The notes beneath the pieces were generated by a model. It had not been told where the DNA came from and did not search any database. It was given only the letters and a program-made list of their open reading frames with translations. From a virus, in the IMG/VR virus record IMGVR_UViG_3300002144_000297, positions 1 through 21,551 of that record: a stretch of 21,551 nucleotides of DNA. One strand, written 5' to 3'. Every line of letters starts with the position of its first letter. Position 1 is the stretch's first letter. Positions 385 to 21,549 of this stretch are shown here, in pieces. The position numbers and the translations under genes were made by a program.

Positions 385-404
385 TTTGTATATTATCCCT
401 ATAG
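385..404 (+). promoter_or_regulatory. Phage promoter motif, copy 1
   Basis: TTTGTATATTATCCCTATAG, 43 bp from its first base to the ATG at 428. It matches the copies at 17803-17822 and 10979-10998 apart from the three-base variable segment and the ends. All copies lie in intergenic DNA 37-46 bp before a start codon, which is the main argument for a promoter. It does not fit the Bacteroidota consensus TAnnTTTG well, so recognition by a phage-encoded or modified factor is possible. Confidence 0.65.
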
Positions 405-3383: not shown

Positions 3384-3701
3384 ATGAAAGAAAAATGGAA
3401 AACATATTTAAAAGTATTTAAAAATGCCGATCTAATACTAGAAGGTATTAAAAATAATATATTTAAAAAAGAACATGTTGAAGCTGTTGCAACAGATAGA
3501 TTTCAAATATGTATAAATTGTTCTTTGTTTGATGCAAAAGGAACTGATTGTTTGGCTCCTGGTACTCAACCTTGTTGTTCTGATTGTGGTTGTAGTTTAG
3601 CATTTAAAGTGAGATCATTATCTTCTGAATGTCCAAAAGGATATTGGTTTGCATTAACAACAGAAGAACAAGAAGAAAAAATAAACCAACAAATTAAATA
3701 A
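3384..3701 (+). CDS. Cys-rich, probably zinc-binding protein (105 aa)
   Basis: Eight Cys lie between residues 43 and 83 (C43, C46, C56, C64, C65, C68, C70, C83), in the order CxxC, then CCxxCxC, then ECPKGYW. This spacing suggests one or two structural zinc sites. The N-terminal 40 residues are helical and basic, and the C-terminus is a Glu/Gln-rich tail. I recognise the pattern from small proteins of Bacteroidota phages near the terminase and nuclease genes, with no known function. It follows the HU-like gene by 10 bp in the same operon. A nucleic-acid-binding or adaptor role is plausible but not shown. Confidence 0.7.
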   Translation: MKEKWKTYLKVFKNADLILEGIKNNIFKKEHVEAVATDRFQICINCSLFDAKGTDCLAPGTQPCCSDCGCSLAFKVRSLSSECPKGYWFALTTEEQEEKINQQIK

Positions 3702-3708
3702 TAAAATT

Positions 3709-3951
3709 ATGAGCGATTTACTTGAACCAATTACCGTATCTGATATTGTAAAAGATTTATTAGAATATAAATTGATTACATTTGAAGCAGCAACAATACT
3801 ATTAAATGCAGAGGCACAAGCTAATGCATTTAATAAGAAAACAATATTACCTCCTGATTGGGTACCTAAAATTAAACAAGAAAATATTATTACATGGACA
3901 ATTGATCCAAATAATCCTGATGTACCATATTGGTACACCACAAGAACATAA
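3709..3951 (+). CDS. Hypothetical protein (80 aa)
   Basis: A small protein lying 7 bp after the Cys-rich gene and 4 bp before the nuclease. Residues 1-45 are helical (IVKDLLEYKLITFEAATILL). The C-terminal third carries Trp, Pro and Asp (ILPPDWVPK, then DPNNPDVPYWYTT), which suggests a short extended or binding segment. It has no motif that I recognise, no membrane segment and no Cys. Its tight position in the run suggests a function linked to its neighbours, possibly in virion assembly. Confidence 0.65.
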   Translation: MSDLLEPITVSDIVKDLLEYKLITFEAATILLNAEAQANAFNKKTILPPDWVPKIKQENIITWTIDPNNPDVPYWYTTRT

Positions 3952-3955
3952 TATT

Positions 3956-4768
3956 ATGGCTATTATATTTAAAGAAGAGGGACATACATATGAAAGTGTA
4001 GACAATGACAATATAGAGTGGTTAAGTGTAACCTCTTTTATAGGAATGTTTAAACCCAAATTTGATGCAAAAGGTCAAGCTAAAAAATCAGCTAAAAACA
4101 AAAGATCAAAGTGGTATGGGATGTCTGAAAGAGAGATACTAGATGCATGGGATAATGAAACAAAAAGAGCTATAAAGTTGGGTAACTTTTATCATAATCA
4201 GAGAGAGACTGATATGTTAGACTTTAATACTATTGAGCGTGATGGAACAGAGATACCTATTGTAAAACCTTTAACAAACGATGATGGTATTAAATTAGCT
4301 CCTGAACAAAAATTAGATGACGGTATATATCCTGAACATTTAGTATATTTGAAATCTGCAGGGATTTGTGGACAAGCTGACTTAGTAGAAATTGTTAATG
4401 GTTATATTAATATTTATGATTATAAAACCAATAAAGAAATTAAAGAAAAAGGATTTACTAGTTGGGAGGGAATAACAAATAAAATGTTTAAACCTGTAAA
4501 CAACTTGGACGATTGTAATTTAAATCATTATAACTTACAACTAAGCATTTATGCGTATATTATTAAAAAGCACAACCCAAAATTAAAAATAGGCAAGTTG
4601 GTAATACAACATGTTAAGTTTATTAAAGTGGGTGAGGATGATAACGGATATCCAATAACCAAAGTGGAAAATGGAGAACCTATTTTGGATGAAGTAAAAA
4701 TGTATGAATTACCATATTTAAAAAATGAAGTTGATTCATTAATGATATGGTTAAAAGATAATAGATAA
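3956..4768 (+). CDS. PD-(D/E)XK family nuclease (RecB/Cas4-like)
   Basis: 270 residues from the ATG at 3956. An in-frame ATG at 3806 lies inside the previous gene and its extra 50 residues look like antisense-type noise, so I reject it. Active-site residues fit the PD-(D/E)XK fold: D142 in GQADLVE, then D155-Y-K157 in IYDYKTNKEI, followed by the Q-containing helix NLQLSIYAYIIKK of RecB-type nucleases. The N-terminal third has the SVTSFIGMFKPKFD start common to phage exonucleases of this class. It probably digests DNA ends or processes branched DNA. A gene of this class beside the structural module is known in crAss-like phages. Roles in recombination, host DNA breakdown or packaging cannot be separated here. 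Confidence 0.8.
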   Translation: MAIIFKEEGHTYESVDNDNIEWLSVTSFIGMFKPKFDAKGQAKKSAKNKRSKWYGMSEREILDAWDNETKRAIKLGNFYHNQRETDMLDFNTIERDGTEIPIVKPLTNDDGIKLAPEQKLDDGIYPEHLVYLKSAGICGQADLVEIVNGYINIYDYKTNKEIKEKGFTSWEGITNKMFKPVNNLDDCNLNHYNLQLSIYAYIIKKHNPKLKIGKLVIQHVKFIKVGEDDNGYPITKVENGEPILDEVKMYELPYLKNEVDSLMIWLKDNR

Positions 4769-5554: not shown

Positions 5555-5721
5555 TGAAGGATAAAGAAATTATATGGCATTTTTGTTATTGGGATGAGCC
5601 CTGTACAACAAAAAACCAAACCGATAATACAGCATTAATAACAAATAAACAAACCAAAGAAGATGGCACAACAAATTATACCAGTAGGGAAGAAGATTCT
5701 GATAAAACAAAAGGCAGCTGA
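5554..5721 (+). CDS. Possible small ORF overlapping the co-chaperonin gene (55 aa)
   Basis: ATG at 5554 shares one base with the preceding stop (TAATG), an arrangement seen in coupled phage genes. The frame ends at TGA 5719-5721. The first 20 residues (MKDKEIIWHFCYWDEPCTTK) look protein-like, while the rest is a low-complexity Thr/Asn/Lys tail overlapping the GroES-like gene by 59 bp in another frame. If it is not a gene, 5555-5662 is a 108-bp untranslated spacer in an otherwise tightly packed run. No homology is recognised. Confidence 0.4.
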   Translation: MKDKEIIWHFCYWDEPCTTKNQTDNTALITNKQTKEDGTTNYTSREEDSDKTKGS

Positions 5722-5941
5722 AAAGTTTTTCAAAAACACTAATATTATTATTCCTGATGGATCTCAAGAAAGAGAGAATGTAGGAACAGTGGTAGGAGTA
5801 GGAGCAAGTGTATTAGAAATAAAAGTAGGAGATGTGGTTCAATATTCAGACCATTGTTTACCTGTTCCCATGAAACATAATGATCAAGAACATTTACTTA
5901 TTCAAGAAGGTGATGTTTTTGCAATTTTAGTGAATGTATAA
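5663..5941 (+). CDS. GroES-like co-chaperonin (Cpn10)
   Basis: 92 residues that follow the Cpn10 pattern end to end: IIPVGKKILIKQ at 5-16, a mobile-loop segment at about 17-27 ending in NIIIPD, GTVVGVG at 41-47, VKVGDVVQYSDH at 54-64, and a closing LLIQEGDVFAIL. GroES caps the GroEL folding chamber. Phage versions such as T4 gp31 replace the host cap so that a large capsid protein can fold. The likely client here is a virion protein such as the 539-residue capsid protein, but this is inference. The last 8 bp overlap the terL start, so the two genes are coupled. Length is close to the usual 95-100 residues. The mobile loop keeps the hydrophobic III-P contact for GroEL. Confidence 0.85.
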   Translation: MAQQIIPVGKKILIKQKAAEKFFKNTNIIIPDGSQERENVGTVVGVGASVLEIKVGDVVQYSDHCLPVPMKHNDQEHLLIQEGDVFAILVNV

Positions 5942-10946: not shown

Positions 10947-10980
10947 ATAAGTTTATTTTTTCATAACCAAGTAAACTTAT
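10947..10980. promoter_or_regulatory. Inverted repeat abutting promoter copy 2
   Basis: ATAAGTTTA (10947-10955) and TAAACTTAT (10972-10980) are perfect 9-bp inverted arms with a 16-bp spacer. The right arm ends inside the first bases of the promoter motif at 10979. It could be an operator for a dimeric regulator, or a weak hairpin ending the portal transcript. There is no U-run after the right arm, which argues against an intrinsic terminator. Confidence 0.45.
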
Positions 10981-10998
10981 TGTATATTATCTATATAA
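10979..10998 (+). promoter_or_regulatory. Phage promoter motif, copy 2
   Basis: ATTGTATATTATCTATATAA, 46 bp from its first base to the ATG at 11025. It shares TTGTATATTAT and the downstream TATA with copies at 385 and 17803. It lies in the 127-bp gap between the portal and scaffold genes and would drive strong expression of scaffold and capsid protein. Confidence 0.65.
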
Positions 10999-12330: not shown

Positions 12331-12354
12331 AATTAAAACAATTAAAAATTATGG
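12331..12354 (+). promoter_or_regulatory. A/T-rich translation leader of the capsid gene
   Basis: Two tandem AATTAAAA elements (12331-12338 and 12340-12347) end in AATT immediately before the ATG at 12351. Nearly the same leader stands before the 510-residue protein gene (16174-16195). There is no Shine-Dalgarno sequence. TAAAA-type leaders are known from flavobacterial genes, so this probably marks a strong ribosome-binding region. Confidence 0.45.
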
Positions 12355-13970
12355 CAACTCCAGTATTAAATAATGGGATTTTCCTAAGAGATACAAGCTA
12401 CAAAGCTAGTTCTCATGTTGATTCTTATCACCTAACCCAAATGCTTGGCAATGCTGAGCCTATGGATATGGGACCAGTTGATCTTTGGGCAATGACCCAA
12501 AAGGTAGAAATGCCTTTGTATCAAATGGCTTCCTTTGGTGGAAAGAACACAATCATGGTGGACAATGCACGTGGTGAGTACAAATGGCAAACTCCTATTG
12601 CTCAAGACCTTCCCTACATTGTAGCGGATATTGAAGCAGCAAACACAACTAAAGGTGTAGATGGTACAGACTTTAGAATTAAAATTTCCAAAAGAACTTT
12701 TGGTCATGGTGATATTATCACTTATGATAAGTATAATGGATTAGAACTTTATATTACAGCTGATGATATCATTCCTGCTGGTGACGGTTATATCTATACT
12801 GTTCAATTGGTAAACAACAACAATGCGGCTATCTTGGATAACAAGTATTTAGCTAAAGGTACTAAATTCTTCAGAAAAGGTTCTGCAAGAGGTGAGTACG
12901 GAGAAAGATTTTCTGACATTGAAACTGGTTCTGGTTTCCGTGAATTCTACAACTTTGTAGGAGGAGCAGAAGCACACGTACACTATTCTATTTCTAGCCG
13001 TGCTGATCTTATGATCAAAGGTGGTTTGAATGCTGATGGTACTGTACCAGTAACTGAAATTTGGAGAAACTTCAACCAAGATCCTAACAATCCTTCTGTT
13101 CCTTCTATTGAAGGTCTGATTGCTAATATGGGTAAAGCTGGTGCAAGAGAAGCATTTGAAAATGGTACTCTTACTAGAACTTTCATTACTAATATGGAAG
13201 CAGCTCACCTTAGCAAGATTGCTACCGATATTGAGACTTACTTAATGTGGGGTAAAGGTGGTAGAGTTAAACAAGATGGACCTGATGATATTAGATTATC
13301 TGTTGGTCTTTGGGCTCAGTTAGATAACTCATTTAAAAGAGTTTATAACAAGTCTTCTTTCACTCTTGACATGTTCAAGTCTGAATTGTATAACTTCTAT
13401 CAAGGTAAAGTTGAATTTAAAGGACCAGATCCTCAGAGATCTTTGGTTGTTCAAACAGGTATTGCTGGTATGCAATTGATTAACAAGGCTATTGCTGATG
13501 AAGTATATGGTTCTGGTTTAGTTCAAAATGCTAGTGAAATTGGTGCAGTTAAAGGTTCTGGTATGGACTTGGATTATGGTTTTGCTTACACAAGCTTTAC
13601 TATTCCTTTCCTTGCTAACGTTAAGTTTGTACTTAACCCAGCCTTTGATAACTTGAACACTAATGATATTGAGAATCCATTAATTGATGGAAGACCTTTA
13701 AGCTCTTTTAGCTTTATCATTTTTGATGTTACTGATGAAGGAAACGATAACATTCACTTGTTGAAACTTTCTTGGGATAATCAACTTAAGTGGTTCTACC
13801 AAAATGGTACTATGGACTACATGGGAAGAACTCAAGGGTTTGCATCTACTGGAAACTTTAATGGTTACCGTGTAATGATGTCACAAACAATGCCTGCTAT
13901 TTGGGTTAAAGATCCAACTAAAGTTCTTAAAATTGTAATGAGAAACCCAATTACTGGTGGATCATTCTAA
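12351..13970 (+). CDS. Major capsid protein
   Basis: 539 residues, placed after portal and scaffold as expected for the HK97-fold major capsid protein. Codon choice is visibly different from neighbouring genes, with more CTT, GGT, AAC and TTC, which fits very high expression. The gene has an A/T-rich strong leader and its own strong terminator at 13983-14021. The protein has an extended N-arm (about 1-50), a stretch rich in aromatics and Gly (about 180-215, with a GSGFREFYNFVGGAEAH segment), and a beta-rich C-terminal half. HK97 fold cannot be proven from sequence alone, but the neighbourhood, length and expression signals agree. I see no obvious N-terminal cleavage site. Confidence 0.85.
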   Translation: MATPVLNNGIFLRDTSYKASSHVDSYHLTQMLGNAEPMDMGPVDLWAMTQKVEMPLYQMASFGGKNTIMVDNARGEYKWQTPIAQDLPYIVADIEAANTTKGVDGTDFRIKISKRTFGHGDIITYDKYNGLELYITADDIIPAGDGYIYTVQLVNNNNAAILDNKYLAKGTKFFRKGSARGEYGERFSDIETGSGFREFYNFVGGAEAHVHYSISSRADLMIKGGLNADGTVPVTEIWRNFNQDPNNPSVPSIEGLIANMGKAGAREAFENGTLTRTFITNMEAAHLSKIATDIETYLMWGKGGRVKQDGPDDIRLSVGLWAQLDNSFKRVYNKSSFTLDMFKSELYNFYQGKVEFKGPDPQRSLVVQTGIAGMQLINKAIADEVYGSGLVQNASEIGAVKGSGMDLDYGFAYTSFTIPFLANVKFVLNPAFDNLNTNDIENPLIDGRPLSSFSFIIFDVTDEGNDNIHLLKLSWDNQLKWFYQNGTMDYMGRTQGFASTGNFNGYRVMMSQTMPAIWVKDPTKVLKIVMRNPITGGSF

Positions 13971-15385: not shown

Positions 15386-16093
15386 ATGAACAATAACACT
15401 CTTTTACTTAAATTAAAACAAAGACTCAATAAACTTGATAGTCAAGATTATGATAACATAGAGTGTTGGCAGTTTGTTGAAGCTTTTAATAAAGTTCAAT
15501 TAGAGTGGTGTAGAAGAAATCTACATGGAGGCAATATGTATAAAGAAGGTGATGAGTTATCTAAAAAAAGAATAGATGATTTGCAACCTTTATTAATAGA
15601 ACTATCTTTAACAGGTACTGTTACTAATACATATTTTGAATCAGATAACTTTCCAGTAGATACGTATTTAGAATTTAAAAGAGTTGGTACTGATGCTACT
15701 TCAGAATGTTGTACAGATCCAAGATCAATGACTGTGTATTTATCGGAGGTTGCAAATGTTCCTTTATTATTAAGAGATCCTTTGAAGAATCCTGATTTTG
15801 ATTGGGGTGAAACATTTTGCACAATGCAAAATAATACAATAAGAATCTATAAAAATCCTGATTTTAATATTGTTAATCCGATCCTAACTTATTATAGAAA
15901 ACCTGTATACATTGAAGTATTAGGTTGTACAGATCCATATACAGGAGGGACAAGTTTAGTAAATATTGAATGTGAATTTAAAGATGATGTAGCTGAACTT
16001 ATGCTAGATGATACAGCATCTCTTATTGCTGGTGATATTGAAAATATATACCAACAACAAAGAGGTCAAGCTGCAGCTGAACGTAATAACTAA
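15386..16093 (+). CDS. Probable head-tail connector (ring / adaptor) protein
   Basis: 235 residues. An N-terminal helical part (about 1-70) with LLLKLKQRLNKLDSQDYDNI is followed by a beta-rich middle and a C-terminal stretch with ILTYYRKPVYIEVLGCTDPY (about 170-190), then NIECEFKDDVAELMLDDTAS and LIAGDIENIYQQQ. This last arrangement, YYRKP followed by an ECEF helix and an IIAGDIE-type helix, is one I recognise from connector or ring proteins of crAss-like and related Bacteroidota phages. Such proteins bind the portal and form the neck. Position after the capsid and before tail genes agrees. The precise ring position is not determined. Confidence 0.65.
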   Translation: MNNNTLLLKLKQRLNKLDSQDYDNIECWQFVEAFNKVQLEWCRRNLHGGNMYKEGDELSKKRIDDLQPLLIELSLTGTVTNTYFESDNFPVDTYLEFKRVGTDATSECCTDPRSMTVYLSEVANVPLLLRDPLKNPDFDWGETFCTMQNNTIRIYKNPDFNIVNPILTYYRKPVYIEVLGCTDPYTGGTSLVNIECEFKDDVAELMLDDTASLIAGDIENIYQQQRGQAAAERNN

Positions 16094-16173: not shown

Positions 16174-16195
16174 AATTAAAAATTAAAAATTATGG
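16174..16195 (+). promoter_or_regulatory. A/T-rich translation leader shared with the capsid gene
   Basis: Tandem AATTAAAA-type elements end at the ATG (16192-16194), nearly identical to the leader of the capsid gene. The shared leader suggests that the 510-residue protein is also made in large amounts. No Shine-Dalgarno sequence is present. Confidence 0.4.
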
Positions 16196-17724
16196 CTTAT
16201 TTTAACAACGCGTTTAACAAAACGTTCATTGCAGATAGCACGTTATTGACGGCTGATACTGCAACAAGTGCCTTAACGGCAGGGCAACTAGCCTTGGTTG
16301 ATGGTTCTACTTGGAAGTCTGTTGCATTACTTGGTGGTTTAGCAGTTCCTGCTATTGGAACTGGTGACCTTGCCTATGTAGTACAAGGTTCTTTTTACAC
16401 TAAAGATACGATTGGAAACAATCCTGGACATGGTGGTTACAAAGAATCAGTAAAATCTAAGGGTATTAACCCAAGATACATTTCTAGATTGTGGAAAACA
16501 AATTGTCTTACTGCTACTCAAGCAACTGCTTCATTATCATTAGGTGCAAAATGTACTCCATGTGGAACCACACAATTCATGAGAATGGATGTAAAAGGTT
16601 CTCCAGCATTACGTTTCTTAAATCACAATGCTTATGCAATTGGTGATTCTGCAAACATTTGTTGTATTGATGGACAAACATATTTAGATCCTGCATTAGT
16701 GTTAGCTACTGAAGCTGCAATGATTGTTGGAAATGGATTAGCAAAAGGTACTGCCGGCTATGAAGCAGGTAATCCTTTAATTACTCCATTTGTAGCTGAA
16801 GCTGATTTAAATGGTGTTGCTACAGCAACATTATCTGCTGGTGGTACAGGATATGCTGTTGCATCTGACGTTGCAACAACAGGTGGTGCTTCAGGTTCAT
16901 CAGGATTAAAAGTAAACATTAATACAGTTGCTGGTGGTGCAGTTGCTACTTTTTCTATTGCAAATGTAGGTAGTGGATATGCTGTAGCTGATGTAATAAC
17001 AATTTCCGGTGGTGGTGCTGATGCAACATTTATTGTTGATACAGTTAGCGCTGGTGGTGTTGTTGTTTCTGTAACTGATGCTGCTGGACAAGTAGTACAA
17101 AGTGTATATACTATTGCTCAAGCACAAGGTCTTGCTGCTGCTGGAAATTATGCAGCTTCAACAACTCCTGATGCTGCTGCAGCTACTGTTACTGCATCTG
17201 TTCATTTTGTAGGAGCTTATGTTGATACTCAATTTGGAGATTGTTCTTTTGATACAAGAGATCATTTTAACAAAGAACCTGTAGAAATTATTGCAACTAT
17301 TCTAGATGAAACTGGTAATCCTTGTAATGATTGTGGTACTGCTGCAAGAACTCCTGGTCAAATGGAGCAAACTCAAGGTGAGCAAGTAATTAGAGAATTA
17401 ATTTTATCTGAAAGATACCGTCAGTCTCCTTACAACCAAGGAAATGCTGATAGTGCTAGAATCAGAGAAATTGAAATGTCTGATGAGCTTTTAGCTGCTG
17501 TAACAAGAACTGCTACTTATAGAGCTTACTATATTCAGCACACTGTGCCAAGATTTAATAACCCAACGGGTGTATTTGATAATGATCAATATGTATATAA
17601 AGTATATGTTAAATGTTCAGATACCGCTGCACAAGGTCAATTAGATGATTTATTTGAAGGTCTAGTTGCATGGGCTGGTGACAATGGTAATAAAATTGCT
17701 ATTGAAACTGGTGCGAACTGGTAA
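16192..17724 (+). CDS. Large virion structural protein with inserted Gly-rich repeats (510 aa)
   Basis: Residues 1-200 contain polar beta stretches and Cys pairs (GAKCTPCGTTQF, NICCIDGQTY). About residues 203-305 form a Gly/Ala/Val-rich segment with two repeats of the form GxGYAVAxDV...GG (near 217 and 258), a pattern typical of small beta domains grafted into phage surface proteins. The last 120 residues are charged and include LILSERYRQSPYNQGNADSA and a beta-rich end. The capsid-like leader and the strong terminator (17746-17781) suggest high expression. The gene lies in the tail position, so a major tail, sheath-like or decoration protein are candidates. I recognise the N-terminus (MAYFNNAFNKTFIA) from uncultured Bacteroidota phages but cannot name the role. 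Confidence 0.7.
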   Translation: MAYFNNAFNKTFIADSTLLTADTATSALTAGQLALVDGSTWKSVALLGGLAVPAIGTGDLAYVVQGSFYTKDTIGNNPGHGGYKESVKSKGINPRYISRLWKTNCLTATQATASLSLGAKCTPCGTTQFMRMDVKGSPALRFLNHNAYAIGDSANICCIDGQTYLDPALVLATEAAMIVGNGLAKGTAGYEAGNPLITPFVAEADLNGVATATLSAGGTGYAVASDVATTGGASGSSGLKVNINTVAGGAVATFSIANVGSGYAVADVITISGGGADATFIVDTVSAGGVVVSVTDAAGQVVQSVYTIAQAQGLAAAGNYAASTTPDAAAATVTASVHFVGAYVDTQFGDCSFDTRDHFNKEPVEIIATILDETGNPCNDCGTAARTPGQMEQTQGEQVIRELILSERYRQSPYNQGNADSARIREIEMSDELLAAVTRTATYRAYYIQHTVPRFNNPTGVFDNDQYVYKVYVKCSDTAAQGQLDDLFEGLVAWAGDNGNKIAIETGANW

Positions 17725-17745: not shown

Positions 17746-17781
17746 AAAAGGCAGGAGAATTAAAAAACTCCTGCCTTTTTT
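17746..17781 (+). terminator. Strong intrinsic terminator after the 510-aa gene
   Basis: GGCAGGAG (17750-17757) and CTCCTGCC (17768-17775) are perfect 8-bp arms with a 10-base A-rich loop and a six-T run (17776-17781). Flanking AAAA/TTTT can extend the stem, and the preceding A-run would allow weak function on the other strand. It is followed 21 bp later by promoter copy 3. Confidence 0.92.
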
Positions 17782-17802: not shown

Positions 17803-17822
17803 TTTGTATATTATATATATAG
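17803..17822 (+). promoter_or_regulatory. Phage promoter motif, copy 3
   Basis: TTTGTATATTATATATATAG, 40 bp from its first base to the ATG at 17843, directly after the strong terminator. It differs from copy 1 only in the variable three-base segment. The terminator-promoter pair marks a clean boundary between transcription units, with the fibre genes downstream. Confidence 0.7.
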
Positions 17823-17842: not shown

Positions 17843-18394
17843 ATGGCAGATAAACATATATTGAGCTTAGAAATCCCTACTGTGTCTAACTGTGGTTTAC
17901 TTTGTATTAAGGATACAAGTCAATATTCATCAGAGTTAGCAGTAGATTGTGAAGAATTATTAATCACTTTACCTGGATTTTCAGTTCCTGTATTAATTAA
18001 AGTTAATAAAGGATTTGACATGTGTTTAACAGCATGTATTTTAGCTTTACAAAAAATTGAATGTGGGACCGTTCAACAAGATATTCCAGATGGAATTTAT
18101 GTTATTAGATATAGTGTATCTCCTAATTTAAAAGTTTATGTGGAGTATAATCATTTAAGAGTAACAGCATTGTTGACTTCTTATTATAAAGTGTTATGCC
18201 AACTTAATGTACAAGCTTGCCAACCAGAATCTCAAAAACAGGCATTGTTAAGTGAAATGAGCTTTATTAAAACTATTATAGATGCTGCTGTAGCAAATGC
18301 AGAATACTGTCAATCTTCTGCACAAGCAATGCAATTATATAATTATGCAAAACAAAGATTAAGTAAAATAAATTGCCCAACAGGAAACTGTTAA
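17843..18394 (+). CDS. Cys-rich conserved phage protein of unknown function (183 aa)
   Basis: First gene of the fibre unit. The N-terminal half is beta-rich with spaced Cys (SNCGLLCIKD near 15-25, then DCEELLITLPGFSVPVLIKV). The middle has IPDGIYVIRYSVSPNLKVYV, and the C-terminal half is helical with Cys (LNVQACQPESQ, NAEYCQSSAQAMQLYNYAKQ) and ends CPTGNC. I recognise this family from uncultured aquatic Bacteroidota phages, where it often travels with the 64-residue Cys protein that follows. No function is assigned. Its place before the fibre suggests a baseplate or fibre-attachment part. The many Cys could bind metal or form disulfides in the virion. Confidence 0.65.
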   Translation: MADKHILSLEIPTVSNCGLLCIKDTSQYSSELAVDCEELLITLPGFSVPVLIKVNKGFDMCLTACILALQKIECGTVQQDIPDGIYVIRYSVSPNLKVYVEYNHLRVTALLTSYYKVLCQLNVQACQPESQKQALLSEMSFIKTIIDAAVANAEYCQSSAQAMQLYNYAKQRLSKINCPTGNC

Positions 18395-18432
18395 GTGATA
18401 AAATAATAAAAATTTAATAAAACCAATTAAAT

Positions 18433-18627
18433 ATGAATTGTGCAAATTGTAATGAAGGCTTTAGTTGTGGATGTCAAAAGATGATTGTAAATGGTATAAC
18501 TATTCACAAAACATGTCATAATGAATGGAAAAATAAAAACCTTTCCTCTAATGTGATTTCTTATACAAGCAACGATTTAAGTTTAGAATTAGCAAAAGAA
18601 CAAATTAAAAATTTAAGATCTAAATAA
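18433..18627 (+). CDS. Small zinc-ribbon-like protein (64 aa)
   Basis: N-terminal cysteines C3, C6, C12, C14 and C28 plus H25 (MNCANCNEGFSCGCQKM, then IHKTCHNEW) suggest one zinc site. The C-terminal half is a polar helix (SLELAKEQIKNLRSK). The pattern CxxCNEGFxCGCQK...VHKxC is one I recognise from small proteins next to fibre genes of Bacteroidota phages. It ends 3 bp before the next gene. Function unknown. A structural or assembly role with the 183-residue protein is plausible from repeated co-occurrence as I remember it. Confidence 0.65.
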   Translation: MNCANCNEGFSCGCQKMIVNGITIHKTCHNEWKNKNLSSNVISYTSNDLSLELAKEQIKNLRSK

Positions 18628-18630
18628 AAA

Positions 18631-19167
18631 ATGGCAGTTGCAAAAACATCTAATTCGGCTTATCAAGCAGATCAATGTCTTATTGAAAAAATTGATGTTG
18701 AGCAAAATTTTGCTAAGCAAACTTATGTAGTATTTAGAGAAAAAAAATTTGGAATAACACCATGTTGTTATGTAGATTATGAATCTGCAGTTATTGATAA
18801 AGCAATTTCAGATTGGAAATATAGTAGTGCATCAAAAGTAGTTATTTCTAGTGGTCTAGCTGGACTCTTTATTGAACCATTAGCACCAATTAATTCAGAA
18901 GCAAGTATTTTATGTCCAATAACTCCAAGTAATGTTTGTACAGTAATAGACTTACAAGAGTTATTAAAAAATAGAGAAACGTTTATATTTTCACAATTAA
19001 GCCCATTAATTGTTTGGACTATTACACATAATTTAAGTCAGTATCCGTCAGTAACAGTAGTAGATTTAAACAATCACATTGTTGTCGGAGATATAGTATA
19101 TACTAATAGTAATATATTAACAATAACTTTTGAAAATGCTTTTGCGGGATATGCCTATTTAAATTAA
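18631..19167 (+). CDS. Small virion protein with fibre-type C-terminal module (178 aa)
   Basis: The N-terminal two thirds is a mixed fold with some Cys (EKKFGITPCCYVDYESAV). From about residue 119 the protein carries SQLSPLIVWTITHNLSQYPS, then VTVVDLNNHIVVGDIVY and TITFENAFAGYAYLN at the end. This WxIxHNLxxxPSVTVVD...GDxxY...LTITFxxAFxGxAYLN pattern is familiar as a C-terminal module of phage fibre and receptor-associated proteins. The protein is therefore probably a short tail or fibre component, perhaps linking fibre to tail. It follows the zinc-ribbon-like gene and precedes the long fibre in one unit. Confidence 0.65.
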   Translation: MAVAKTSNSAYQADQCLIEKIDVEQNFAKQTYVVFREKKFGITPCCYVDYESAVIDKAISDWKYSSASKVVISSGLAGLFIEPLAPINSEASILCPITPSNVCTVIDLQELLKNRETFIFSQLSPLIVWTITHNLSQYPSVTVVDLNNHIVVGDIVYTNSNILTITFENAFAGYAYLN

Positions 19168-19203: not shown

Positions 19204-21549
19204 ATGGCAATTAATTTCTTAAACACGGTTGATCTTAATAAGAATCAACTTAACAACGCGGTAATACAAAACCTAGCTGTAGATCCTGTTTCAGGGGAAG
19301 TTGGGCAGATAATATTTAACACGGCTGCTGATACTCTAAAACAGTATGTAGCAGATGTAGGAACTGGTTCTCCAGGATGGGTGGAAGTTGGTTCCACTAG
19401 TGTTGTAGCTGGTGCTGGCATAGGTGTTACCTTTTCTGGAGGGAATGCAATAGTAAGGAATACAGGTATTATAAGTGTACTAGATGGTACATACATCGAT
19501 CTAACAAAACAAGGTGGTGGGGATAATACACAATTAACCGCAGATCTATCTGCTGTTGACGGTACTTCTGTAGCAGGCACTAGATTTTTAAGCAAAGACA
19601 ACACGTGGGACGTGCCTACGTTCCCTACTGTAGGGAATGGTATTTTAACTGTTCAAGGAACGGGTGTTTTAGGAGGAACTGGAACATTTACCGCGAATCA
19701 ATCGGGTAATACCACTATATCAATAACTCACGACACTCAAACTCAAACTAACACAACTCCCTCCACCACTTTAACTCATGGTGGAACCTTTACAGCTCTT
19801 TCAGCTAATGCAAGTGTTGATGCTTCAGGTCATGTCACGGGTCAACAACTTACAACTTATACATTGCCAGCTGATTTGCAAGGTGTAACAAGTGTAAACT
19901 TCACAACAGACGGTACCGCTTTAAACGTAAACTCAAACACTGTTACAACTTCCGGTACCATGACGGGTATCTGGCAGGGTACAGCGGCTCAGTATGTAAA
20001 TGGTGAAGGAGATTTAACTACTTTTCCAGCTATTCCTCAAGGAGACATCACCCAGGTTAACATAACGGCCGGTTTTGGATTAAGTGGCACGTCTGTAAAC
20101 ACTACAACAGGGGCACATATTCAAACGCTGACTGTTGGGCAAGGAGATGGTATAACGGTTTCAGCAACTAATGTCGCTGTTAATAGCACAGTTGTTAGAA
20201 CTACCGGCACTCAATCTATTGCAGGCTCAAAAACTTTTACTGATCAAGTAACAATCCCTACTACTCCGACAGCCAACGCAAGCGCTGCTTCAAAGCAGTA
20301 TGTGGATCAATCAAACGTTGGACAATCAATATTTCAAGGCGGATATAACGCTGCTACAAATACACCAGACTTAGATGTTTCACCTTCTAACCTTATTAAG
20401 AAGGGTTGGTTCTGGGCAGTAACAGATACAGGTGTTTTCTTTGCGGAAACAGTTCAGCCAGGAGATTTAATATATGCTAACCAGGATAATCCAGGAGCAA
20501 CATTTGCTAATTGGGTTGTAGTTCAATCAGGACAAGACATTGCGACAGCAGGAGCATCAGATGGTGCAACGGTAAAAGGTATTGCCGGTTTTAACTCTGC
20601 TCACTTTAACGTGACATCTAATGGATGGGTTTCTTCTGATATATACGGCGGAGGTTCTACACTAGGTATTGTACCTTCTGGAGGCGTGGCCGGAACGTTC
20701 CTTAACGGAGCTGGTTCTTGGGCTACCCCCGCAGGTACTTATGTACTGCCAGTAGCAACAAGTACTGTTCTTGGGGGTGTTAAAATTGCAGATAACACCG
20801 TACAAACCACAGCGGCTAACACTATAACCACTACAGCTAGTAGAACATATGGTAGTCAATTTAATGCAGCGGGTCAAGTAGTGGTTAACGTTCCTTGGAC
20901 GGATACTACTTACAGCATGATGACGTCTACCGTCTTAGGCCTAGGCAAGTTATTTTCAGACACTACCCAAACCATCGGGGCCACCGCCGTAAGCGCCACC
21001 GCCTCTAGAACATATGGGGTTCAAAAGAATTCTAGTAATCAACTAGTAGTTAACGTGCCGTGGGTAAATACACAAAATGTAACTTCAGTTTCTCCAAGTA
21101 GCGCGAACAATCTTCTAGGTATGTCTGTAACGCCTACAACGGGCGCTGTTGTAGTAGGTCTAAATATAAATGGCCTTGCGGCGATCTCTACCCTTGACGA
21201 TGCAGATACTCTAGCTATTTATGACGGAGGTATTAACAAAAAGATATCTTTACTACAATTAGAAAATCACATTGGTGCCGCCAAGTCTAAAAGATTTATA
21301 CTTAACACGACAACGACTAATGTATCTCAGCAGGTTTCTCCTCCAGGTGGAACTATAGGATGGGTGGTTGCAGTAGGCGTAGCTTTAGGCGTAAGCACAG
21401 CTTTAGATTGTGCGGTGGAGATTATACAAACATCTAATGGAGCAACGGTGTATGCCGAAGTAACAAGATCAGGTACGGATGTAACAATTAACTTTTCAAC
21501 ACCAGTATCACAAGGCGATTATCAAGCTTTAATTACTAGAATATATTAA
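19204..21549 (+). CDS. Tail fibre / receptor-binding protein (781 aa)
   Basis: The N-terminus (MAINFLNTVDLNKNQLNNAV) is of a type that I recognise from fibres of Bacteroidota phages and probably attaches to the tail. The body is very rich in Thr, Gly, Ser, Asn and Val with repeated beta segments, including a fibre-type element (SIAGSKTFTDQVTIPTTPTA, then SAASKQYVD). Two 50-residue repeats lie at 519-568 and 574-623. The C-terminus (GTDVTINFSTPVSQGDYQAL, about 756-775) resembles the end module of the 178-residue protein. The gene is richer in G and C than its neighbours and uses codons such as ACG, GCC and ACC that are rare elsewhere here, which suggests exchange with other phages. Role: host recognition. 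Confidence 0.85.
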   Translation: MAINFLNTVDLNKNQLNNAVIQNLAVDPVSGEVGQIIFNTAADTLKQYVADVGTGSPGWVEVGSTSVVAGAGIGVTFSGGNAIVRNTGIISVLDGTYIDLTKQGGGDNTQLTADLSAVDGTSVAGTRFLSKDNTWDVPTFPTVGNGILTVQGTGVLGGTGTFTANQSGNTTISITHDTQTQTNTTPSTTLTHGGTFTALSANASVDASGHVTGQQLTTYTLPADLQGVTSVNFTTDGTALNVNSNTVTTSGTMTGIWQGTAAQYVNGEGDLTTFPAIPQGDITQVNITAGFGLSGTSVNTTTGAHIQTLTVGQGDGITVSATNVAVNSTVVRTTGTQSIAGSKTFTDQVTIPTTPTANASAASKQYVDQSNVGQSIFQGGYNAATNTPDLDVSPSNLIKKGWFWAVTDTGVFFAETVQPGDLIYANQDNPGATFANWVVVQSGQDIATAGASDGATVKGIAGFNSAHFNVTSNGWVSSDIYGGGSTLGIVPSGGVAGTFLNGAGSWATPAGTYVLPVATSTVLGGVKIADNTVQTTAANTITTTASRTYGSQFNAAGQVVVNVPWTDTTYSMMTSTVLGLGKLFSDTTQTIGATAVSATASRTYGVQKNSSNQLVVNVPWVNTQNVTSVSPSSANNLLGMSVTPTTGAVVVGLNINGLAAISTLDDADTLAIYDGGINKKISLLQLENHIGAAKSKRFILNTTTTNVSQQVSPPGGTIGWVVAVGVALGVSTALDCAVEIIQTSNGATVYAEVTRSGTDVTINFSTPVSQGDYQALITRIY
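20758..20907 (+). repeat. Tail-fibre internal repeat A
   Basis: Encodes 50 residues (TSTVLGGVKIADNTVQ, later TASRTYG and VVNVPWTDT). By eye it is identical to repeat B at 28 of 50 positions, with no gap. The DNA has diverged more than the protein, so the duplication is old or the copies came from different sources. Confidence 0.75.
20923..21072 (+). repeat. Tail-fibre internal repeat B
   Basis: Encodes 50 residues (TSTVLGLGKLFSDTTQ, later TASRTYG and VVNVPWVNT), the second copy of the unit at 20758-20907, 15 bp after it. The conserved end VNVPW in both copies may form the closing strand of a beta layer in the fibre shaft. Confidence 0.75.

Follow-up and report, generated by a model that had tools for sequence, protein, structure and literature searches.

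Gene content of the window

The window, that is, the whole stretch of DNA analyzed here, is a virus fragment of 21.6 kb (21,551 nt). It carries two short, Cys-rich CDS on the plus strand, encoding proteins of 183 aa (positions 17843–18394) and 64 aa (18433–18627). The preliminary description had placed both ORFs at exactly these positions and noted their high Cys content, and on both counts it was accurate. The pair follows a structural region of crAss-like arrangement (terminase, portal, a 426-aa gene, major capsid, ring and a 510-aa gene), and the capsid protein matches the Pfam family Crass_capsid with 104 bits against a cut-off of 27. The capsid gene (12351–13970) is the most strongly conserved of the region's genes, with 94–99% identity over the 81 loci compared. 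Upstream of the terminase gene are CDS for an amidase with a peptidoglycan-binding domain (1743–2666), an exonuclease (3806–4768) and a phage GroES-like co-chaperonin (5663–5941).

A single ring gene was detected in the window by hhalign. Its product, a tail barrel protein of 235 aa with 7 Cys (15386–16093, plus strand), matched gp64 of Cellulophaga phage phi17:2 (97.0% probability) and a 221-aa protein of Leptolyngbya phage Lbo-JY46 (95.8%), and the ring proteins gp34 and gp35 of PhiCrAss001 (crAss001) ranked third and fourth among the 22 targets, at just 9% and 2%. For the 338-aa protein encoded before it, the best match was a 293-aa protein of Lbo-JY46 (88%), with gp33 of crAss001 second (5%). 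The 510-aa protein (16192–17724, plus strand) stands where gp36, the auxiliary capsid protein, would be expected, and this putative role is a purely positional assignment; hhalign aligned it with a 631-aa protein of Lbo-JY46 (45.9%) and found no match to gp36. An early guess that it was a contractile-tail protein was abandoned.

Downstream of the pair, the next gene of the unit encodes a 178-aa protein (18631–19167, plus strand) that matches phrog_30556 (2.4e-17) over residues 116–178, its C-terminal ~60 residues being a domain common to several PHROG families of unassigned function. It is followed by the gene for a 781-aa fibre protein (19204–21549, plus strand; Pfam BppL_N, 3e-7; phrog_8309, 7e-9).

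Terminator and promoter-like motif

An intrinsic terminator, consisting of the stem GGCAGGAG/CTCCTGCC, a 10-nt loop and a T6 run (17750–17781, stem 17750–17775, plus strand), lies 3' of the 510-aa gene and 5' of the 183-aa gene. A hairpin with a T-run preceded the 183-aa gene in 87 of 90 different sequences; at a control site, placed around the stop of the same gene, none of 89 had one. Between the terminator and the gene is a promoter-like motif, TTTGTATATTAT-N3/4-TATAG (17803–17822, plus strand), which recurs in 86/90 sequences, 37–52 nt 5' of the ATG. The sequences without it (L182, L184, L185 and L186) form one clade and carry a different hairpin near the ATG. Similar sites precede two other units of the window (385–404 and 10979–10998), giving 3 matches at three or fewer mismatches where 0.01 would be expected. 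A scan of the window for sigma-70 promoters returned 19 sites, close to the 18.7 expected by chance. A motif of the same type is also found near position 29727 (minus strand) of the relative G001, before a gene for a 740-aa Cys-rich protein.

The conservation of the hairpin with its T-run and of the motif, together with the similar motifs before other units, provides good support for the earlier proposal that the pair has a promoter of its own, in the sense of a conserved element that would act as a promoter; the recurrent TTTGTATATTAT motif is possibly the late promoter of the lineage. The proposal that the pair opens a unit ahead of the fibre genes also stands, with the terminator and motif on its 5' side, and the 178-aa gene and then the 781-aa fibre gene on its 3' side. 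The two genes would then be co-transcribed.

Conservation of the gene pair

Related loci were collected from both genes: the best 80 of the 237 stretches related to the 183-aa protein and 27 found with a distant member as query, and, from the other side, one locus plus the best 80 of the 193 relatives of the 64-aa protein. The record of the Leptolyngbya phage (L083) was set aside, and contigs were counted by hand as distinct contig names. In the resulting pool of 187 loci on 137 distinct viral contigs, the two genes lie next to each other in all but one locus (186 of 187), and so in 136 of the contigs. The lone exception (L074) is a contig that stops within the first gene, and at one further locus (L120) the first gene is interrupted (110 aa). 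The small gene directly follows the larger one, with a gap of 10–78 nt in 80/80 loci, and in all 14 contigs of 107–118 kb each gene is present as a single copy, side by side with the other. Both loci found on contigs of metagenome-assembled genomes (MAGs; L196 and L197) carry the pair as well. The earlier statement that this pair recurs in uncultured phages was thus borne out for many of them, with the gene order kept, whichever gene the search was started from.

A tblastn search of 50,697 phage records gave no match for either protein, nor with a divergent member of the small-protein family as query, and the literature searched, mostly titles and the opening lines of abstracts, yielded no paper describing the 183-aa/64-aa pair.

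Predicted fold of the 183-aa protein

The AF2 model of the 183-aa protein, based on an alignment of 64 sequences with a lowest identity to the window protein of 55%, has a pLDDT of 87.6 and a pTM of 0.80. It consists of an N-terminal beta sandwich (residues ~1–107) and a C-terminal part with helices at 108–121, 130–154 and 159–177. When the model was compared with the PDB, the top two chains were both PhiCrAss001 gp38: 7qol_W (Z 9.0, rmsd 3.8 over 146 residues) and 7qoj_G (Z 9.0, rmsd 3.7 over 145 residues), the latter entry being named 'Tail hub protein A gp38'. The alignment with gp38 runs from position 6 to 172 of the predicted model and so spans both domains. The chains below gp38 have Z scores of 7.7 or less, and nearly all of them align only over residues 1–109, through an Ig, FnIII or similar beta-sandwich domain. 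With Foldseek, no PDB entry matched the model within an E limit of 0.001, and the first 50 matches listed did not include gp38.

Beta sandwiches are very common among proteins. The likeness to gp38 in this sandwich and in the helical hairpin could have arisen by chance, and the protein might be another Ig-like virion part, such as a head fibre, a decoration protein or a receptor-binding adaptor. The predominance of beta sandwiches among the fold matches would fit this, as would the missing sequence link to gp38 (see later) and the place of the gene at the start of the fibre unit. What makes it improbable is that gp38 itself tops the PDB chains, 1.3 Z above the rest and with both domains covered, and that the gene lies between the gp36 position and the fibre genes, as do its counterparts in crAss001, Lbo-JY46 and phi17:2 (with four extra genes between in phi17:2).

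A comparison with predicted viral structures put first a 'structural protein' of 171 aa from Cellulophaga phage phi17:2, aligned over its full length (TM 0.80, E 4e-9), which we take to be gp58, judging by length and phage. The third-ranking structure was a 167-aa protein of the crAss-like phage cr128_1, whose genome has a gp38 relative of equal length. The gene for gp58 occupies the corresponding slot in its genome, as does that for gp056 of phage phi4:1 (both Lightbulbvirus structural proteins). The structural annotation of gp056, a positional counterpart, comes from 'experimental MS/MS proteomics' of virions. The Cellulophaga proteins differ from the window protein in having three Cys rather than 11, and the protein encoded next is of 100 aa and does not have the zinc-finger pattern of the 64-aa protein.

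Sequence comparisons reached as far as Lbo-JY46, where a 177-aa ORF (XAI97411.1) matched the profile of the 183-aa family (E 9.5e-7; hhalign 73.8%) and shares with it the gene order around the capsid, ring and fibre genes. This ORF is annotated as hypothetical, and differs also in its next gene, which encodes a 92-aa protein with only an N-terminal CxxC. It matches phrog_31752 'virion structural protein' (3.8e-5) and, by hhalign, phi17:2 gp58 (75.7%). The direct link from the 183-aa profile to gp58 was no stronger than noise (E 0.02, next to 0.023 for another ORF). Comparison with 12 hub sequences of the gp38 family gave an hhalign probability of 0.6%, though the sequences may have diverged too far for this comparison to be decisive, and the match to the gp38 profile was no better after phi17:2 and Lbo-JY46 had been added, with the C-terminus alone, or under three alignment settings. 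A sequence profile search of the PDB did not find gp38 and returned one chance match, and the window protein had no Pfam family and a best PHROG value of just 0.023. As all profile comparisons with gp38 failed, no homology in sequence to gp38 is claimed, and the identity proposed below rests on fold and position.

Gene order and identity as a tail hub protein

The position of the 183-aa gene was compared across the window, crAss001, phi17:2, Lbo-JY46 and a relative of 116 kb. According to the part of PMC10172136 available, which is the source of the gene roles, the order in crAss001 is gp33, the rings gp34 and gp35, the auxiliary capsid protein gp36, hub A (gp38), hub B (gp39), R2 (gp40), IHF (gp42), R1 (gp43) and the muzzle (gp44). 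The order in the window is the 338-aa gene, the 235-aa ring gene, and then the 510-aa, 183-aa, 64-aa, 178-aa and fibre genes. In the 116-kb relative the fibre genes are followed by genes for proteins of 188, 224, 314 and 2171 aa, for which the best of nine crAss001 proteins were IHF, R2, R1 and the muzzle, at low probabilities of 0.3–22%; three neighboring genes of the same genome, used as controls, gave nothing sensible. With gp40 as BLAST query and an E limit of 1, 7 of the 14 genomes showed an R2-like gene (best E, 1.4e-5). The 183-aa gene thus has the place of hub A, after the ring and auxiliary capsid genes, before a small gene in the hub B slot and ahead of R2, the auxiliary capsid and R2 assignments being themselves weak.

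The 183-aa protein and PhiCrAss001 gp38 (PDB 7qoj, 7qol and 8ckb) share a beta sandwich with a C-terminal helical part (Z 9.0 over 145–146 residues), a gene position between the auxiliary capsid gene and a small hub gene, and a high Cys content (11/215 in gp38). They differ in that their sequences show no detectable similarity, in that the window protein is shorter by about 30 residues, and in that its gene is followed by a zinc-finger gene in place of hub B and then directly by the fibre genes. The 183-aa protein had been described as being of unknown function; its predicted fold and gene position match the fibre-docking collar protein of crassviruses, tail hub protein A, and this is probably what it is. 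That it works like the crassvirus fibre-docking hub is a stronger claim than that it is homologous to gp38, and both are likely.

Conserved cysteines

Cys accounts for 11 of the 183 and 5 of the 64 residues of the two proteins. In 22 further ORFs of the window it makes up 54 of 6158 residues (0.88%), which gives binomial P values of 8e-7 and 3e-4, respectively, for the pair. The head proteins are Cys-poor (0/539 in the capsid protein, 2/918 in the portal and none in the 426-aa gene), and tail proteins of the relative contain Cys frequently (10 in the R1-like and 30 in the muzzle-like protein). Five of the 11 Cys positions of the 183-aa protein are occupied in 90/90 sequences and the other six in 73–89, and the neighboring residues Cys 108/109 of the ring protein are kept in 92/92. 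Two further Cys-rich loci were seen. The window itself has a gene for a 105-aa protein with 8 Cys at 3384–3701 (phrog_13558, function unassigned, 8.8e-8). On the minus strand of the relative G001 (L199/L200), at 29665–26867 and downstream of the fibre genes, there is a second Cys-rich pair, of 740 aa (25 Cys) and 186 aa (13 Cys).

The preliminary description had regarded Cys-rich virion parts as uncommon, which overlooks the disulfide-bonded hub and barrel of PhiCrAss001. In the part of PMC10172136 available, the hub is described as an A2B trimer, twelve of which form an interlocked collar seated on rings R1 and R2 and grip the N-terminus of fibre gp22, and disulfide bonds are described within the hub, within the ring (barrel) and at the contacts between hub and ring. 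The conserved Cys of the 183-aa protein and Cys 108/109 of the ring protein are compatible with disulfides to partner hub proteins and to ring proteins, and those of the 183-aa protein likely form disulfides after lysis.

The same residues could instead bind metal, as Fe-S or zinc clusters, in keeping with the invariance of five of the 11 positions in 90 sequences and with a partner that is a probable metal protein. This is very unlikely, as the 183-aa protein has no CxxC and its Cys are spread across both domains, two Cys have been lost jointly with the rest kept, and disulfides are what the crAss001 hub uses in the available part of PMC10172136. The two residues concerned, C21 and C61, are both present in 73 of the 90 sequences and both missing in 17, and neither occurs alone. 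Their joint loss was considered as a disulfide signature and rejected, because on the tree it is a single event and says little about pairing.

The 64-aa zinc-finger protein

The 64-aa protein of the window has five Cys and a ligand-like His, and its family follows the pattern C-x2-C-x5-C-x-C-x10/11-[CH]-x2-C, which includes four predicted metal ligands (C3, C6, position 25 and C28), with Cys/His exchange at one of them. Residues C3, C6, C12 and C14 are found in 87/87 sequences and C28 in 85/87, and position 25 is Cys in 54 and His in 33. Also invariant are G13, Q15, K16 and G21, which gives the motif CGCQK. On the tree of the neighboring gene, position 25 has changed between Cys and His at least four times, exchanges that a disulfide would not tolerate, so this residue appears to be a metal ligand. 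The protein very probably binds zinc.

The predicted model has a hairpin at residues 16–25 and a helix at 26–38 (pLDDT 84–87 over residues 1–30), and its PDB neighbors are mostly LIM, RING, PHD and FYVE zinc domains, each of them a weak match (E 0.04 and above). It shows a knuckle, a beta hairpin and a second ligand pair at the start of the helix. On this model the protein is a treble-clef-like finger; the earlier label of zinc ribbon, a beta-only fold with two knuckles, does not fit a second ligand pair that opens a helix. Treble-clef and LIM fingers (e.g., the LIM domain of LMO2, 2xjy) likewise have a knuckle, a beta hairpin and a helix with the last ligand pair, and show Cys/His exchange. 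The 64-aa protein differs from them in having one finger only, in its extra invariant CGCQK and in having no assigned sequence family, with Foldseek E values of 0.04 to 0.2. The window protein matched no PHROG or Pfam family, other members match many zinc families weakly, and a profile search of the PDB gave weak matches only, mostly to zinc proteins.

The 64-aa gene is the constant neighbor of the putative hub gene and occupies the slot of tail hub protein B, directly after hub A. PhiCrAss001 gp39 (tail hub protein B) is similarly a small protein encoded right after hub A, but it has 114 aa, 2 Cys and no zinc pattern, and shares no profile similarity with the 64-aa protein. Profile comparisons with gp39, phi17:2 gp57 and the 92-aa protein of Lbo-JY46 gave no match. 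Relatives of the 64-aa protein are 39–72 aa long; among 93 different pairs, 16 have a small protein of at most 45 aa, and the shortest (39–45 aa) have no space for the C-terminal helix. Median identity is 45%, compared with 81% for the hub gene. An association between the length of the hub tail and that of the partner was dropped as confounded by kinship.

Small treble-clef and LIM-like fingers usually bind other macromolecules. The 64-aa protein might accordingly be an assembly factor or regulator of the unit outside the virion, for example by maintaining hub or fibre proteins in a folded or reduced state ahead of assembly, or by tuning late transcription. Such a role is only a little less probable than its opposite: the variable length and fast evolution of the protein are unlike those of a tightly packed virion part, and it has no similarity to hub B. 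It is countered by the strict adjacency to the hub gene (186/187 loci) and by the 100-aa protein in the same slot of phi4:1, which was annotated from virion MS/MS and is unrelated to it in sequence. That the 64-aa protein is itself carried in virions is conceivable, at slightly under an even chance.

Relatives and hosts

The best capsid match among named phages was the phage Lbo-JY46 of the cyanobacterium Leptolyngbya, followed by crAss-like and Cellulophaga phages. The Leptolyngbya phage record (L083, PP438436.1) has in common with the lineage its capsid protein (28%), its gene order and a hub relative. Hosts outside the Bacteroidota, the group named in the preliminary description, are possible on these sequence comparisons. 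A scan of genome contigs gave two confirmed loci among 10 candidates, L196 and L197, in MAGs labelled Pseudomonadales and Campylobacteraceae; no host is claimed from them, because these may be mis-binned phage contigs.

Proposed role of the pair

The genes, their conserved adjacency, the predicted fold and the gene order are the observations on which we base the following explanation, which as a whole we consider fairly likely: the 183-aa protein would be hub A of a crAss-like lineage, and the zinc finger a partner located in, or assembling, the same hub. As in PhiCrAss001, the 183-aa protein would form, from many copies, a collar that clamps the tail barrel where the ring proteins lie and holds the N-termini of the tail fibres. 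The hub would be built from the beta sandwich and the C-terminal helical hairpin, and the conserved Cys would form disulfides within the hub and to the rings once the virion exits the reducing cytoplasm. The 64-aa protein would adopt its treble-clef fold around a bound zinc ion, most likely sitting in the hub or helping to assemble it, where it may touch the 183-aa protein.

What would be new is a variant of a known virion part that is invisible to sequence searches, together with a constant zinc-finger partner. It extends the fibre-docking hub of PhiCrAss001 to a lineage beyond the reach of such searches, and gives a testable function to two conserved hypothetical genes common to at least 137 uncultured viral contigs. 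The constant zinc-finger partner also raises the question of how fibre docking is built without a recognizable hub B. One answer, which we regard as rather doubtful, is that a zinc finger carried in the virion has taken the place of hub B in this lineage, with a metal site then holding the collar together alongside the disulfides. If true, fibre attachment in these viruses would depend on metal and on redox state.
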